Assembly: GCA_020725805.1 (NCBI GenBank)
Contig: DYEF01000022.1
Span: forward strand, 1-59,265
Reading direction: 5' to 3'
DNA length: 59,265 nt
DNA from: Bdellovibrio sp.
GTDB taxonomy: Bacteria; Myxococcota; SpSt-1050
Part shown: piece by piece, positions 2,184 to 18,493 of the stretch
How positions within the stretch are numbered: position 1 is the stretch's first letter
Layout: each line of letters opens with the position of its first letter
Made by a program: the position numbers and the translations under genes
The notes under the pieces: model-generated
What the model was told of the DNA's origin: nothing
The model's input: the letters and a program-made list of their open reading frames with translations, nothing else
Database searches by the model: none

Positions 2184-4757
2184 ATGAATAGATGGATTTT
2201 ATCTTTCCTTGTTTTGCTCATTTTGGTTGCCTTTTCGTCGGGTCTGATTGCGCAGACCGAGAACAGGCCAAAGTTCAATATACCTACCAAAGGGATTCTG
2301 AAAGGGAAGGATGTTCTCAATCCTCAGGTGTCCAAGAAGAAGAGACCGCCGTCGCAGGAGGCAGCCGAACCGGAGAAGGATACAAAGGCCGAGGTCAGAA
2401 AAGAAGAGACGGTTCCCAAGGGGAATGTGCTCAAGGGAGAGGAGAAGGCGGAGATTCTGGAGGCCAGCGAGTCCTCAAGCTGCCTCAAGAGCCGCGGAAA
2501 AGGTCCGTATAAGCTCGATTTCAACAAGGCAGATATTATCGATATCGTAAAATTTATCTCCGAACTCACCTGTAAGAATTTTATAATTCCGGATAATCTC
2601 AGGCAGGGGAAAATTACCATTATGTCTCCCGAACCGATTAGTGCCGAGGAGGTTTACAGGGCATTCCTGTCGGCCTTAGAGGTAAACAAGATTACTATTG
2701 TGCCCGCCGGTAAGTATCTGAAACTTATGGGACAGAGGGAGTCCATATCTGCCACTATACCGACTATTGTAGGAGATGAAAAGTATCCGGTCGACGACCG
2801 TATGATTACCAAAATCGTAAGAGTAAAGTATGTTGACCCGAATACATTACTACCGACCCTCAAACAGCTTGCCAGTAAGGACGGCGATATATTTCTGTAT
2901 GCACCTACCAATGCACTCATAATAAGTGATACTGGGAATAATCTGCACAGGCTCGAGAAGATAATGGAGGAACTCGACAAGCCCGGATTTGTTCAGGAGA
3001 TTCACCTCTATCCTCTGACCTATGCAGTGGCCTCCCAGATGGCCGAGAAACTCACTAATATTTTCGATGTAAAGGGTGGTCAGCAGGGTGGTCCGGCACC
3101 GGCCTTCAGACCTGCGCCTGCCCCGGGTGAACCGCCTGCTTCGGCAAAAGAGAAGAAGGATGATGAGGATACAAAGATTTCGAAGATAATTGCAGATGAC
3201 AGGACCAACAAACTTATCATCATTGCAACAAAAAAATCCTTTGAGGATATTGTGGAAGTGATAAAGAAACTTGATGTGCCCGTACCGGGTGAGGGTCAGG
3301 TTCACGTATATTACCTGCAGTATGCCGATGCTGACCAGCTTGCCAATACTCTTTCACAGCTTGCACAGGGATATAAGGGTGCGAAGGGGGCGTCAACCCC
3401 GAAACCACCCACAGCCGCACCTGCCGCTCCGGGTGCCTCTGCCGAACTCTTTCAGGGAGATATCAAAATTACGGCAGACAAATCTACGAATTCCCTTCTC
3501 ATCATAGCAAATCAGAACGATTACAAGAATCTTGTCAGGGTTATCGAAAAGCTTGATGTGAGAAGAAGACAGGTCTTTGTTGAGGCAGTAATTATGGAGG
3601 TTTCTCTGGACAAGCGAAAGAGTGCGGGACTAGCCTTTAATGCCGGAATGGGAATGGAATACGACGGACAGAAATTTCCTGTCTTTGCCGGTACAATGCT
3701 GGGCGGACTCAACTCGCTCGTGCTGGAACCATCTTCACTTGCTCAGCTGGGCGGATTTGTATCGGGTGTGCAGGGACCTCCTGTGGAGGGAGTTGAACTG
3801 GGCGGGGCCACAAAAATCAGTCTTCCGAGTTTCGGGGTCATTCTCAGGGCACTTCAGGCAAACTCTGATGTAAATGTGCTTTCTACACCGCATATTCTCA
3901 CAACAGACAATGAGGATGCGGAGATTCTGGTAGGGCAGAATATACCTTATCAGGCGGGATTTACCTCTTCACTCGGAGGTGCGAATCTGACCTCGTGGAC
4001 ACCCATCGTTTCGATTCAGAGACAGGATGTCGCTCTCAAGATGAAGATAAAGCCCCAGATTAACCAGAGCGATTATGTGAAACTCAATATCGAGCAGGAG
4101 GTATCGGAAGTGGCGGGGACCGACCCTGTGCTTGGTCCGACTACAACAAAGAGGTCAGCAAAGACCGTGGTAGTGGTAAAGGACCAGCAGACGGTGGCAA
4201 TCGGCGGACTTATGAGGGATAATCAGTCGGTATCTGTCTCTAAGGTCCCGATTCTGGGAGATATACCGATTATAGGTTGGCTCTTTAAGAACAAGGAGAC
4301 AAAGACCACAAAGACTAATCTGCTTCTGTTCCTCACACCCTATATAATCAGTGACAAGGAGGATTTCAGACGTATTTTCGAGAGAAAGATGAGAGAGAGA
4401 AAGGAGTTTATAGAACGTTTCTACGGGGCGGGAGCCGAATTCGATATATATATTGACTACAACAAGAAACACGGTCCGTTCTTTGAGATGAACAAGAAGA
4501 TGAATTCCGAACTGGATAAACTCGAGAACGGCGGCAAGGGGAAGGATGACGAGATACTTATTACACCTGAATCGGATATCGAAAAGCTGAAGGAAGGCGC
4601 CAGACAGGAATCCCAGCATGGGAAAAATAGCGAGATAAAACTGAATCCTGTGGCAGATAATCCTCAGGAAGTAAAACAGGAAGTAAAGGAAGAGAATAAG
4701 ACAGAGAAGAGTGAAGAAACAAAGCCTGAAGAAAAAGAACATATAGAGGTTAAATAG
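2184..4757 (+). CDS. gspD: Type II secretion secretin GspD
   Basis: Forms the multimeric outer-membrane channel of the type II secretion system. The protein has 857 aa and a Sec signal peptide at 1-24 (ends LIAQ). A Lys/Glu/Pro-rich linker follows at about 30-95. The N0 domain starts at about 105 (YKLDFNKADIIDIVKF). Three KH-like N1-N3 repeats come next, each with an RTN- or STN-type NxLII motif (for example ADDRTNKLIIIA and ADKSTNSLLIIA). The secretin domain (about 475-720) contains VLSTPHILT and VPILGDIPIIGWLF. A Lys/Glu-rich tail of over 100 residues has no membrane-spanning character. AGGAG lies eight bases before the ATG. The linker and tail are low-complexity and probably disordered. 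Confidence 0.95.
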   Translation: MNRWILSFLVLLILVAFSSGLIAQTENRPKFNIPTKGILKGKDVLNPQVSKKKRPPSQEAAEPEKDTKAEVRKEETVPKGNVLKGEEKAEILEASESSSCLKSRGKGPYKLDFNKADIIDIVKFISELTCKNFIIPDNLRQGKITIMSPEPISAEEVYRAFLSALEVNKITIVPAGKYLKLMGQRESISATIPTIVGDEKYPVDDRMITKIVRVKYVDPNTLLPTLKQLASKDGDIFLYAPTNALIISDTGNNLHRLEKIMEELDKPGFVQEIHLYPLTYAVASQMAEKLTNIFDVKGGQQGGPAPAFRPAPAPGEPPASAKEKKDDEDTKISKIIADDRTNKLIIIATKKSFEDIVEVIKKLDVPVPGEGQVHVYYLQYADADQLANTLSQLAQGYKGAKGASTPKPPTAAPAAPGASAELFQGDIKITADKSTNSLLIIANQNDYKNLVRVIEKLDVRRRQVFVEAVIMEVSLDKRKSAGLAFNAGMGMEYDGQKFPVFAGTMLGGLNSLVLEPSSLAQLGGFVSGVQGPPVEGVELGGATKISLPSFGVILRALQANSDVNVLSTPHILTTDNEDAEILVGQNIPYQAGFTSSLGGANLTSWTPIVSIQRQDVALKMKIKPQINQSDYVKLNIEQEVSEVAGTDPVLGPTTTKRSAKTVVVVKDQQTVAIGGLMRDNQSVSVSKVPILGDIPIIGWLFKNKETKTTKTNLLLFLTPYIISDKEDFRRIFERKMRERKEFIERFYGAGAEFDIYIDYNKKHGPFFEMNKKMNSELDKLENGGKGKDDEILITPESDIEKLKEGARQESQHGKNSEIKLNPVADNPQEVKQEVKEENKTEKSEETKPEEKEHIEVK

Positions 4758-14380: not shown

Positions 14381-15580
14381 ATGAAGGCACTTCTTGTTAT
14401 TATGGATGGGCTCGGGGACAGGACGGATAAGACTCCTCTCAACGTGGCAAATACACCCTGTCTTGATTCATTCGCAAAGAAGGGTATGACCGGTCTTATG
14501 TATCCTATCGGAATCGGATTTATTCCGGGTTCTGATACAGCGCATCTTGCTATTTTAGGATATGACCCGTTTGTCTATTATAAGGGAAGGGGTGCTTTCG
14601 AGGCACTCGGTGCGGGTTTTGAATTAAAGGACGGCGACGTGGCGTTCAGGGTGAATATGTCAACCGTCGATGATAACTGGAATGTCCTCGACAGGAGGGC
14701 GGGAAGAAACGATTTCGGTATGAAGGAATTATTTGCAGCGATTGACAATATGGAGATAGACGGTGTCAATATCAGGGTGACCCATACGGTGGAGCACAGG
14801 GGTGCAGCATTATTTTCGGGTGCAAATCTCTCGGTCAAGGTCTCTAATACAGACCCTCACAGGGAGAATGCGAAGGTTGAACACGCCGGGGCACTCGATA
14901 AGAGCGGAGAGCATATCGCAAAGGTTCTGAATGAATTTACCAGAAGGGCCTACGATATATTGAAGAATCATCCCGCAAATAAGGAAAGGGCAGCAAAGGG
15001 GATAAAGGTTGCCAATATTCCTCTCCTGCGCGGTCCCGGTGAGTGTTTCAGGCCCGAACCTTTCGAGAAAAAATTCGGAGTCAAGGCGGTCTGTGTAGCC
15101 GGAGGCGCCCTCTATAAGGGAGTTGCGAGATATCTCTCGTTCTATACGCCGGATATCGAAGGGGCGACAGGCACCAAGAATACAAATCTTGTTGCCAAGA
15201 AGAATGCTGTCCTGAAGTATATGAATGATTATGACTTTGTTTTTGCGCATCTGAAGGGGACTGATTCCTGCGGTCACGACGGGGATTTTGAAGGGAAGAA
15301 GGCATTTATAGAGAGGGCTGATAAGGAATTCTTCGACGGGCTTCTTGACAAGTTCGATGTAGTGGTTGTAACAGGTGACCATTCGACTCCCTGTGTGGCA
15401 AAGCGGCACTCGATGGACCCGGTTCCTCTCCTGTTTTATGCCAGGGATATCAGACCCGACGAGACAACGAGATTGTGCGAGGCACAGGCCTATAAGGGCG
15501 GTCTTGGCAGAATACTCGGAAAAGACCTCGTTCCGATAATTATGGATTATATCAACAAATCCAATATGTTTGGCGAGTAG
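14381..15580 (+). CDS. apgM: 2,3-bisphosphoglycerate-independent phosphoglycerate mutase, archaeal type
   Basis: Interconverts 3- and 2-phosphoglycerate through a phosphoserine enzyme. It belongs to the alkaline-phosphatase superfamily form common in archaea and scattered bacteria (ApgM). The 399 aa include the metal ligand in MDGLGD (D9), the nucleophile Ser51 in IPGSDTAHL, and the second metal site in KGTDSCGHDGD and VTGDHSTPC. A strong AAGGAGG stands before the ATG. A gap of 108 bases separates it from gspN, so it may have its own promoter. The thermonuclease gene overlaps or abuts its stop. Confidence 0.9.
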   Translation: MKALLVIMDGLGDRTDKTPLNVANTPCLDSFAKKGMTGLMYPIGIGFIPGSDTAHLAILGYDPFVYYKGRGAFEALGAGFELKDGDVAFRVNMSTVDDNWNVLDRRAGRNDFGMKELFAAIDNMEIDGVNIRVTHTVEHRGAALFSGANLSVKVSNTDPHRENAKVEHAGALDKSGEHIAKVLNEFTRRAYDILKNHPANKERAAKGIKVANIPLLRGPGECFRPEPFEKKFGVKAVCVAGGALYKGVARYLSFYTPDIEGATGTKNTNLVAKKNAVLKYMNDYDFVFAHLKGTDSCGHDGDFEGKKAFIERADKEFFDGLLDKFDVVVVTGDHSTPCVAKRHSMDPVPLLFYARDIRPDETTRLCEAQAYKGGLGRILGKDLVPIIMDYINKSNMFGE

Positions 15581-15587
15581 GATTCTC

Positions 15588-16133
15588 TTGAGGTCCGGAA
15601 GAAGGCTCACATCGGTCGGGACAGCAGTTTTTATTGCGGCAGGAATTATCTATTATCTTATTAACGGCAATCTGGGCAGAGAGGAGAAGACCTTCGGGCA
15701 GAATGATGCCGTTGTTGTTTCGGTTCATGACGGAGATACAATAAAGGTAAAGTATGAAGGCAGGACGGAATCGGTACGTTTTATCGGAATAGATGCACCG
15801 GAACTTGATCAGGAAGAGTGGGGGAAAAAGGCACAGGAGAGATTATATTCACTCATTCCTCCGGGCAGTGTCGTGACTCTGGAATTTGATTTAACGAAGC
15901 GGGACAAGTATGGCAGACTGCTCGCCTATATTTTTACAAGAGACGGGAAATTCGTAAATGAACTGATGCTCAGAGACGGACTGGCAATGCTTTATACCTT
16001 CCCCCCGAATGTAAAATATACTGAAAAATTCAGGGAGGCCCAGAGATATGCGCGGGAGAATATGCTGGGAATATGGGGCAAGAACGGCCTCTCAATGAGT
16101 CCTCAGGATTTCAGAAAGAGCCATAAAAAGTAG
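15588..16133 (+). CDS. Membrane-anchored thermonuclease (SNase family)
   Basis: A staphylococcal-nuclease-fold protein, likely a calcium-dependent nuclease facing the periplasm or outside. No ATG is available. TTG at 15588 with AGGA six bases upstream is chosen over a TTG at 15570 that lacks a ribosome site. The resulting 181-aa protein has a basic N-terminus and one membrane helix (about 10-26). Catalytic residues match nuclease D21/R35/D40/E43/R87 at D50, R64, D69, E72 and R110 with the spacing of the first four exactly kept (VHDGDTIKV, VRFIGIDAPE, DKYGRLLAY). It directly follows apgM and is probably cotranscribed with it. Confidence 0.85.
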   Translation: MRSGRRLTSVGTAVFIAAGIIYYLINGNLGREEKTFGQNDAVVVSVHDGDTIKVKYEGRTESVRFIGIDAPELDQEEWGKKAQERLYSLIPPGSVVTLEFDLTKRDKYGRLLAYIFTRDGKFVNELMLRDGLAMLYTFPPNVKYTEKFREAQRYARENMLGIWGKNGLSMSPQDFRKSHKK

Positions 16134-16246
16134 TATGGTTTTCCCCTGAAATTGTGCCAGATATGTTGTAACCTGTTGATATTGTGCGGGTTTTTTGGTG
16201 CCGGGCAGGAATTTTGTTTTACAGGGTGGCCTGCAAAAAATAGTGT

Positions 16247-16275
16247 TTGACATACCTGTATCACTGATATATACA
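16247..16275 (+). promoter_or_regulatory. Sigma70-type promoter of the small RNA candidate
   Basis: Perfect -35 TTGACA at 16247-16252, a 17-base spacer, and -10 TATACA at 16270-16275. Transcription would begin near 16282. This is one of the best promoter matches in the window. No gene with a ribosome site follows before the terminator. Confidence 0.6.
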
Positions 16276-16281
16276 CATTTA

Positions 16282-16376
16282 TGAAACCAATTTATCTTCA
16301 AGGGTGGCGTTGTTCCTTCCTTACTGACCTCCCCCCACACAGTAAGTCTTAAAGACAGCGCCGCCCGATTTTTTTT
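16282..16376 (+). ncRNA. Candidate small RNA, about 95 nt, with C-rich loop
   Basis: A free-standing transcription unit between the thermonuclease and HAD genes. A consensus promoter lies just upstream and a strong intrinsic terminator closes it. The HAD gene beyond has its own promoter. The RNA would fold as a 12-bp outer stem (16302-16313 with 16355-16366, two G.U pairs) enclosing a perfect 7-bp inner stem (16320-16326 with 16340-16346). The inner loop is ACCTCCCCCCACA, and the bulge 5' of it holds TCCTTC. CCUCC is complementary to Shine-Dalgarno GGAGG, so antisense action on ribosome sites is a natural guess. It is not recognisably SRP RNA, 6S RNA or tmRNA. Alternatives are a 23-codon ORF (16281-16352, no ribosome site) or a riboswitch leader. 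Confidence 0.5.
16302..16376 (+). terminator. Intrinsic terminator with nested hairpin and T8 tract
   Basis: The outer arms GGGTGGCGTTGT and ACAGCGCCGCCC pair over all 12 positions (two wobbles). After GA comes a run of eight T at 16369-16376. An inner CTTACTG/CAGTAAG hairpin lies within the loop. It would end the small RNA and could also stop read-through from apgM-thermonuclease. Confidence 0.7.
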
Positions 16377-16406: not shown

Positions 16407-16435
16407 TTGATTTAATCTCTGTCATAAACTATAAG
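16407..16435 (+). promoter_or_regulatory. Promoter of the HAD phosphatase gene
   Basis: TTGATT at 16407-16412, a 17-base spacer, TATAAG at 16430-16435. The start would fall near 16442, leaving a leader of only about 17 bases with GAGGGAG before the ATG. It makes the preceding RNA unlikely to be an obligatory leader of this gene. Confidence 0.5.
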
Positions 16436-16458: not shown

Positions 16459-17166
16459 ATGATCAAGGCACTTTTCTTTGATTTTGACGGAGTTATAGTC
16501 GATACCGAACCGCTGCACTACGAGGGTTTTTTGAGGGTGATGAAGAAGTTCGGATATTCGATGACCTATGAGCATTATAAGAAAAATTATCTGGCCTTTC
16601 AGGACAGGGATTGTTTTATCGGAATACTGAATGAACTGAATATGAAATATGATGATAAATTTCTCGATGAACTGATTGAAGAGAAGGGCAGGTGGTTCTT
16701 TCCTCTTTTGAGCGAACTACCTATCAGAATCAGGGGAGAGAAGAGCGATGAAGGGGCAATTCTGACGTTTGAGGGACTGCCTGAGTTCGTAAGGGAGGCC
16801 TCAAAAATATATAAACTCGCAGTTGCCTCGGGTGCGCAGAGAAATGAGATCGAGGTCATTCTTAAAAGGCTCGGGATTTCTGAATGCTTTATGTTTATCG
16901 TTGCCGCGGGAGATTATGTAAAAGGGAAACCTGACCCGGAGCCCTATCTAACGGCTTACAGAAAACTCTCACAGATTATCAGTGATATAGATATTTCTGA
17001 ATGCGCAGGTGTTGAGGATTCATTCTTCGGAGTAAAGGCAGTTAAGGCTGCAGGTATGAAATGTCTGGCAGTTACAAATTCGTATTCCCGGGAGATTCTC
17101 TCGGAGTACGGTGCTGATCTGGTTGTCGGGAAACTTTCGGTGGATTTACTCCCGCTAAGATTATAG
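16459..17166 (+). CDS. HAD-superfamily phosphatase/phosphomutase (beta-phosphoglucomutase-like)
   Basis: Cytoplasmic haloacid-dehalogenase-type hydrolase with a helical cap. Motif I is DFDGVIVDTE (nucleophile Asp in the first DxD). Motif II is VASGAQ, motif III lies around KGKPDPEPY, and motif IV is GVEDSFFGVKAVKAAGM. Length 235 aa fits beta-phosphoglucomutase, phosphoglycolate phosphatase and similar small-molecule phosphatases. The residues that would separate these cannot be judged here. Its own promoter and a GAGGGAG ribosome site precede the ATG. Monocistronic. Confidence 0.8.
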   Translation: MIKALFFDFDGVIVDTEPLHYEGFLRVMKKFGYSMTYEHYKKNYLAFQDRDCFIGILNELNMKYDDKFLDELIEEKGRWFFPLLSELPIRIRGEKSDEGAILTFEGLPEFVREASKIYKLAVASGAQRNEIEVILKRLGISECFMFIVAAGDYVKGKPDPEPYLTAYRKLSQIISDIDISECAGVEDSFFGVKAVKAAGMKCLAVTNSYSREILSEYGADLVVGKLSVDLLPLRL

Positions 17167-17275
17167 ATATTCTTTCCTGTTCTGAAGACGGTTCAAAAGA
17201 AAAATTCATTTTTTCCTTTACTTTATCTGATAGTTTTTTTATTTTATAACCTTCCGAAGTAATAAAGGAGTGGAT

Positions 17276-18493
17276 ATGTTTATTTCAGCGTACGGATTGA
17301 CTGATGTCGGCAGAAAAAGACCGCATAATGAGGATTATTTCCTTGTTGATGAGGATAACAAGATTTATATAGTGTGTGACGGAATGGGAGGAGCAAACGC
17401 GGGAGAGGTTGCATCCCGGATGGCAGTTGAAATTATAGGCGGCAGGGTCAGGGAAAGAATAGAAGAGATAAGGGAACTGAGTTCACAGAATACATTCGAT
17501 TCGAAACAGAAGATAAAGAACATTATCAGTGAGGCCGTCTCTGAGGCAAGTCTCAGGATTTTTGAGATTGCTTCGAAGGAAGAGTCCAAGAAGGGTATGG
17601 GGACTACGCTTGTTATGCTGATAATCTGCGGTGAGAATGCTTTCATCTCGAGTGTCGGAGACAGCAGGGCATATCTCATAAGGGATAATCAGGTATATCA
17701 GGTTACGGAGGACCATACGCTCGTCAATGAGCAGTTGAAGCGCGGGCTCATCACACCCGAAGAGGCAAAGAATGTAACTTACGGTAATGTCATTACACGT
17801 GCAGTAGGTGTTATGGAGTCCGTTATGGTAGATACAACACATATCGAACTGATGGCAGGCGATATCTTCCTTCTGTGCAGTGACGGTCTGCACGGATATA
17901 CAGAGGATAAGGACATTCTCTCCTTTGCCTCGCTCGGCACACTTCAGGAGATGGCAGCATCTGCTATCGAGTTTGCAAATCAGAGAGGCGGAAAGGATAA
18001 TATCACAACGATTTATGTAAGAGTCTCGACAGAACTGAAGACAGAGGTCCCTGCATCGGATAAGATAAGACTACTGAAATCCGTAAGGCTCTTCAAGTAT
18101 TGTACCTATCAGGAGATTATGAAGGTATTGTCGGTCGCAACTATCGAGACTTTCGAAAAGGATGAAATTATCCTTATGGAGAATGAGCCCGGCGAGGAAT
18201 TTTATATTATTCTCTCGGGAGAGGTTCAGGTAACGGGCAACGGAAAACTTATTGCAAGGCTCGGGGTAGGGAAGCATTTCGGGGAGATGGCACTGATCGA
18301 CCTCGCCCCGAGGTCCGCATCGGTCGTAACAACCGAGACATCAAAACTGATAAAGATCAAGAGAAAGGATTTTGTGGCACTGATAAAGGAGGATACGCAT
18401 CTGGGTATCAAACTCCTCTGGTCGTTTTTGCAGGACCTTTCGGACAGACTCAGAATTACCAACATCGAACTTATAAAGCATCTCACTCAGTGA
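17276..18493 (+). CDS. PP2C-type Ser/Thr phosphatase fused to a cyclic-nucleotide-binding domain
   Basis: A 405-aa cytoplasmic signalling protein. The N-terminal PP2C domain (about 1-245) has all metal-site motifs: RPHNEDYF, CDGMGGANAGEVAS, SSVGDSRAYLI, CSDGLHGYTED and GGKDNIT. The C-terminal CAP-like domain (about 275-390) has a canonical phosphate-binding cassette, HFGEMALIDLAPRSASV, with the Glu and Arg that bind cAMP or cGMP. The phosphatase is thus probably gated by a cyclic nucleotide. Start: ATG at 17276 with AAAGGAG five bases upstream, preferred over GTG 17270. The FHA protein encoded at 32578 is a possible reader of the phosphothreonine it removes, but that link is inference. Confidence 0.9.
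   Translation: MFISAYGLTDVGRKRPHNEDYFLVDEDNKIYIVCDGMGGANAGEVASRMAVEIIGGRVRERIEEIRELSSQNTFDSKQKIKNIISEAVSEASLRIFEIASKEESKKGMGTTLVMLIICGENAFISSVGDSRAYLIRDNQVYQVTEDHTLVNEQLKRGLITPEEAKNVTYGNVITRAVGVMESVMVDTTHIELMAGDIFLLCSDGLHGYTEDKDILSFASLGTLQEMAASAIEFANQRGGKDNITTIYVRVSTELKTEVPASDKIRLLKSVRLFKYCTYQEIMKVLSVATIETFEKDEIILMENEPGEEFYIILSGEVQVTGNGKLIARLGVGKHFGEMALIDLAPRSASVVTTETSKLIKIKRKDFVALIKEDTHLGIKLLWSFLQDLSDRLRITNIELIKHLTQ

Follow-up and report, generated by a model that had tools for sequence, protein, structure and literature searches.

Related small RNAs

Small RNAs that expose a C-rich or otherwise pyrimidine-rich motif are, as a general kind, common in bacteria. The cyanobacterial sRNAs Yfr1 and Yfr10 are short transcripts of their own with an exposed pyrimidine motif, ACUCCUCACAC, which a stem-loop of Yfr10 carries in its loop (PMC2190773, PMC6778093). 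The alpha-r14 ('cuckoo') sRNAs of the alphaproteobacteria, e.g. NfeR1, present an anti-Shine-Dalgarno (anti-SD) motif in hairpin loops (PMC10746234), and RoxS and FsrA of B. subtilis bind mRNAs via C-rich regions or seeds (PMC8216469).

Based upon its promoter, fold and conservation, the locus described here very probably specifies an independent small RNA. It lies in the first third of the window, by which we mean the whole stretch of 59,265 nucleotides that was analysed. Its loop, ACCUCCCCCCACA in the RNA, resembles the ACUCCUCACAC motif of Yfr1 and Yfr10, but the two motifs are not the same. Yfr1 moreover is a cyanobacterial RNA of 54-69 nt with two hairpins and the motif unpaired between them, and no ACUCCUCACAC between two stem-loops was found here, motif and layout both being different. 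The alpha-r14 RNAs possess three hairpins each with CCUCCUCCC, whereas the present RNA has one nested hairpin with ACCUCCCCCCACA; an unpaired CCUCC-type motif, as in their anti-SD loops, is predicted by the fold. RoxS and FsrA come from another phylum and differ in architecture, and the present RNA has no Rfam match. A long stem with an internal loop is also seen in 6S RNA (RF00013), but the RNA described here is half as long and its closing stem is a terminator. A 6S identity was rejected: there is no RF00013 match at this locus, and the separate, bona fide 6S RNA of this genome is located on another contig (G000:C52:1735-1922, 89.5 bits).

Layout and predicted fold

The features of the locus are listed below, with identities to the sister species, the MAG 'Deltaproteobacteria bacterium SKW273' (isolate SKW273).

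15570 to 16133, + strand: upstream gene, staphylococcal-nuclease-like protein (SNase; PF00565, E = 6e-23), with an orthologue upstream in the sister species
16234 to 16246, + strand: A-rich stretch (AAAAAATAGTGTT region) directly 5' of the -35 hexamer, possibly an UP-like element
16247 to 16275, + strand: promoter, with TTGACA at 16247-16252, a 17-nt spacer and TATACA at 16270-16275
about 16282 to 16376, + strand: predicted small RNA of ~95 nt, its 5' end placed from the promoter
16302 to 16313, + strand: 5' arm of the outer (terminator) stem, GGGTGGCGTTGT, which pairs with ACAGCGCCGCCC at 16355-16366; 12/12 identical
16314 to 16319, + strand: 5' side of the internal loop in the predicted fold, TCCTTC; 5/6 identical
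16320 to 16346, + strand: apical hairpin with a 7-bp stem, CTTACTG (16320-16326) and CAGTAAG (16340-16346), both arms identical
16327 to 16339, + strand: apical loop of 13 nt, ACCTCCCCCCACA, the C run of which differs in length by one in the sister species (C6 against C5)
16347 to 16354, + strand: 3' side of the internal loop in the predicted fold, TCTTAAAG; 7/9 identical when counted as 16347-16355
16355 to 16376, + strand: intrinsic terminator found by the stem and T-tract scan, consisting of the outer-stem 3' arm ACAGCGCCGCCC (16355-16366), GA and T8 (16369-16376)
16459 to 17166, + strand: downstream gene, HAD-family hydrolase (PF13419, E = 2e-26), with a 73% identical orthologue in the sister species

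A sequence-only reading of this DNA had proposed a consensus promoter, TTGACA-17-TATACA, and this is indeed present. It matches the consensus at 10 of 12 positions; with 13 promoters of such a pattern found against 7.7 expected in 5 kb, the pattern alone is not significant in this DNA. Both hexamers are, however, unchanged in the sister species (-35 6/6, -10 6/6) against 11/17 in the spacer, and 10 of the 12 aligned bases of the A-rich stretch are the same. The same reading had singled out a 12-bp stem with T8 as the sole strong intrinsic terminator. Scanning both strands of the window for stems with 10 or more pairs and a loop of up to 60, followed by at least 7 T in 8, returned this site alone. 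Its 7-bp hairpin with a C-rich loop was likewise recovered, whereas the TCCTTC 'bulge' is better described as the 5' side of an internal loop.

The fold of the predicted RNA (16282-16376) has an energy of -30.1 kcal/mol, as compared with -14.5 +/- 2.6 for shuffled sequences (z = -6.13; 0/200 shuffles as good), while the opposite strand is unremarkable (z = -1.1). MFE and centroid folds coincide. From the outside inwards they consist of an outer stem of 12 bp, to which a 13th pair, U.G, is predicted to be added, the internal loop (TCCTTC / TCTTAAAG) and the 7-bp hairpin with its 13-nt loop, the whole being followed by T8. The CCUCC-type motif is unpaired in both folds, and UCCUUC, on one side of the internal loop, forms a second pyrimidine patch. 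Loop and patch could each pair with SD-type G-rich sequence. At the level of sequence, the locus has both a promoter and a terminator of its own, as expected of an independent sRNA. We propose that a stand-alone regulatory RNA of ~95 nt is transcribed from this promoter and ended by this terminator, the long stem of which would double as the body of the RNA.

Conservation in the sister species

A DNA search of relatives located a homologue on contig JAOAFA010000072.1 of the sister species, the only genome of the same genus that was searched (E = 4e-29, 81% over 139 bases). In this one relative the hairpin core of the RNA is conserved more than its flanks, with 61/66 identical positions against 60-65% in the promoter spacer and the 5' tail (12/20); the downstream spacer is unalignable. 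For scale, identity is ~72% in the coding DNA of the neighbouring genes and 95% in a tRNA-Arg from the intergenic DNA that was sampled. As to the compensatory changes that the sequence-only reading had called for, the stems are kept with a single base changed, an outer-stem pair going from U-G to U-A; this change is one-sided and comes from a comparison of two sequences only. The conservation of loop and internal loop comes close to that of the stems, as would be expected of binding sites. The terminator stem is kept as well. Its T tract reads TTATTGTTTT, and since the U tract is thereby interrupted, termination may be weaker in the sister species. Promoter, stem and terminator spotted by eye in raw sequence can gain backing from a single sister genome.

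Possible targets and mode of action

Such an RNA would most likely act in trans and independently of Hfq. Its loop, ACCUCCCCCCACA, may initiate pairing with G-rich stretches in or close to the ribosome binding sites (RBSs) of a few mRNAs, which would then block their translation. Anti-SD action of the C-rich loop stands, in our judgement, at about an even chance. The explanation as a whole, a stand-alone, trans-acting and Hfq-independent RNA whose loop blocks the RBSs of few mRNAs, is the best that we can offer, and our confidence in it is evenly divided. No Hfq match was obtained in this genome or in that of the sister species, and five control genomes each gave one; Hfq is thus unmatched in a genome that nevertheless has 6S RNA.

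It had been claimed that the C-rich loop is complementary to GGAGG. The unpaired CCUCC bears this out, but a target screen of start regions did not rise above its shuffled controls. In this comparative duplex screen of 175 orthologous start regions, conserved pairing was no better than that of shuffled loops: -16 kcal/mol was attained in both genomes by a single pair, as compared with a mean of 1.2 for full shuffles and 2.1 for shuffles that keep ACCUCC. Since the screen took in ~1.5 Mb of the window's genome and ~0.7 Mb of the sister genome, which is a minority of the genes, it could have overlooked a small regulon; a broad one that relies on strong, conserved pairing appears less likely. Extended complementarity near an ATG was found at 18 sites in the window's genome and 11 in the sister genome, with no gene in common, and no pair of orthologous RBSs emerged from pattern searches of the two. 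Both genomes have many SD-type start sites (GGAGG), and complementarity to CCTCC is unspecific because SD sequences share GGAGG. The longest complement, TGTGGGGGGAGGT (L040), was rejected as a target as it lies within a reading frame. We also considered a more far-reaching possibility, namely a new Hfq-independent sRNA family of one deep deltaproteobacterial lineage, in which the two pyrimidine patches mimic the 16S anti-SD and the RNA serves as a broad translation regulator or SD competitor rather than acting on one or two mRNAs. This we regard as improbable.

The RNA may also be independent and yet use its loop differently, either as a protein binding site or for pairing with another RNA, such as a G-rich sponge or a coding region. 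There is precedent for the latter in RosA, a G-rich RNA that titrates the C-rich sRNAs RoxS and FsrA (PMC8216469). Partners of either type are consistent with the conservation of all unpaired parts of the hairpin, not of the loop alone, and with the absence of RBS target enrichment among the 175 start regions. Against them, the loop carries the CCUCC of the anti-SD, and we hold this alternative to be possible but rather doubtful.

Relationship to the neighbouring genes

The window and the sister species have the gene order SNase - RNA - HAD - PP2C/cNMP - OsmC - TrxB in common, the OsmC-like and thioredoxin-reductase-like neighbours being named from sequence resemblance. The PP2C/cNMP gene (17270-18493) codes for protein phosphatase 2C and cyclic-nucleotide-binding domains in one protein, and its association with the RNA locus is kept in the sister species. 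Elsewhere in the window, a type II secretion secretin (GspD-like) is encoded at 2184-4757, and from reading them we have the impression that the frames beside it, to about 14 kb, are more of such a cluster.

With this order kept, with the HAD gene on the same strand and with its start codon 82 bp past the T tract, the RNA might be a leader or attenuator of that gene, the terminator hairpin governing read-through. In the sister species, however, ~560 bp of unrelated sequence separate the two, and the close, constant linkage expected of a leader or riboswitch is therefore not seen. Within the RNA, fold prediction offers no antiterminator as a competitor, the centroid being the MFE fold, and no riboswitch or T-box family was matched. 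A leader function is accordingly unlikely, and the conservation of promoter and hairpin as a unit upholds the earlier view that the RNA is independent and not a leader. The downstream gene had also been credited with a promoter of its own; there is a candidate, TTGATT-17-TATAAG (16407-16435), but it is weak, with a 9/12 match. On the other side, the distance from the SNase end to the RNA promoter is ~110 bp in the window against ~1.4 kb in the sister species, where the gap (L009 6100-7440) is without a long reading frame. Since the HAD start and the SNase end lie ~560 bp and ~1.4 kb from the RNA in that genome, neither gene is tied to it.

A small peptide, encoded alone or in addition to an RNA function, would have to start at the ATG at 16281-16283, which opens a 23-codon frame (MKPIYLQGWRCSFLTDLPPHSKS). 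In its favour, the sister species keeps the TATGAAA at the predicted 5' end and shows the same frame up to the C run. There, though, the one-base difference shifts it; the residues of the first codons differ (KPIYLQ against KIILLL), and the ATG, being at the presumed 5' end, is without an SD. The conserved part has almost no synonymous changes, and the constraint therefore acts on the RNA, which leaves the peptide very unlikely. On the antisense strand, the reading frames that run across the RNA measure 82 aa in the window and 132 aa in the sister species; they were discarded, as the frame is not kept and they look mechanical.

The hairpin follows the SNase gene on the same strand and might simply serve to terminate it, or be a chance structure. 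This is scarcely credible, as SNase ends ~1.4 kb upstream in the sister species, a conserved promoter lies directly 5' of the hairpin, terminators need no conserved loops or internal loops, and none of 200 shuffles folds as well.

Distribution

With a covariance model derived from the two sequences, the RNA was detected in only the window's genome and its sister among 195 genomes of the phylum, the 193 others giving none. The third genome of the class had no RNA by this model, nor did a genome of the same order (G002), in which a 43% HAD homologue sits within a much longer open frame. In total, nine stretches were recovered when ~85,000 species genomes were scanned for the motif ACTGACCTCCCCN{1,4}CACAGT; when scored with the covariance model, the SKW273 contig (108 bits) was the sole true homologue and the others remained below 17 bits. 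Two hits of the motif in viral contigs were judged to be chance. Rfam gave no credible family at gathering or loose thresholds, and the matches to CRISPR-DR44 (E = 0.59) and, on the other strand, mcrA (E = 0.24) were likewise put down to chance.

The RNA thus appears to be detectable in one genus only, and would represent a new, genus-restricted sRNA among the already known sRNAs with C-rich loops. A well-delimited small RNA without an Rfam match, from a little-sampled lineage without an Hfq match, offers a concrete test of chaperone-free C-rich sRNAs; otherwise, it is a further example of a bacterial sRNA at genus level.

Identity to the sister species is 86-95% in three further intergenic blocks of the window's genome (L090:16652-16768, L126:8341-8424 and L148:18674-18715), none of which has an Rfam match. 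They show little structure and no long frame in common, which suggests that they are probably promoters or leaders.
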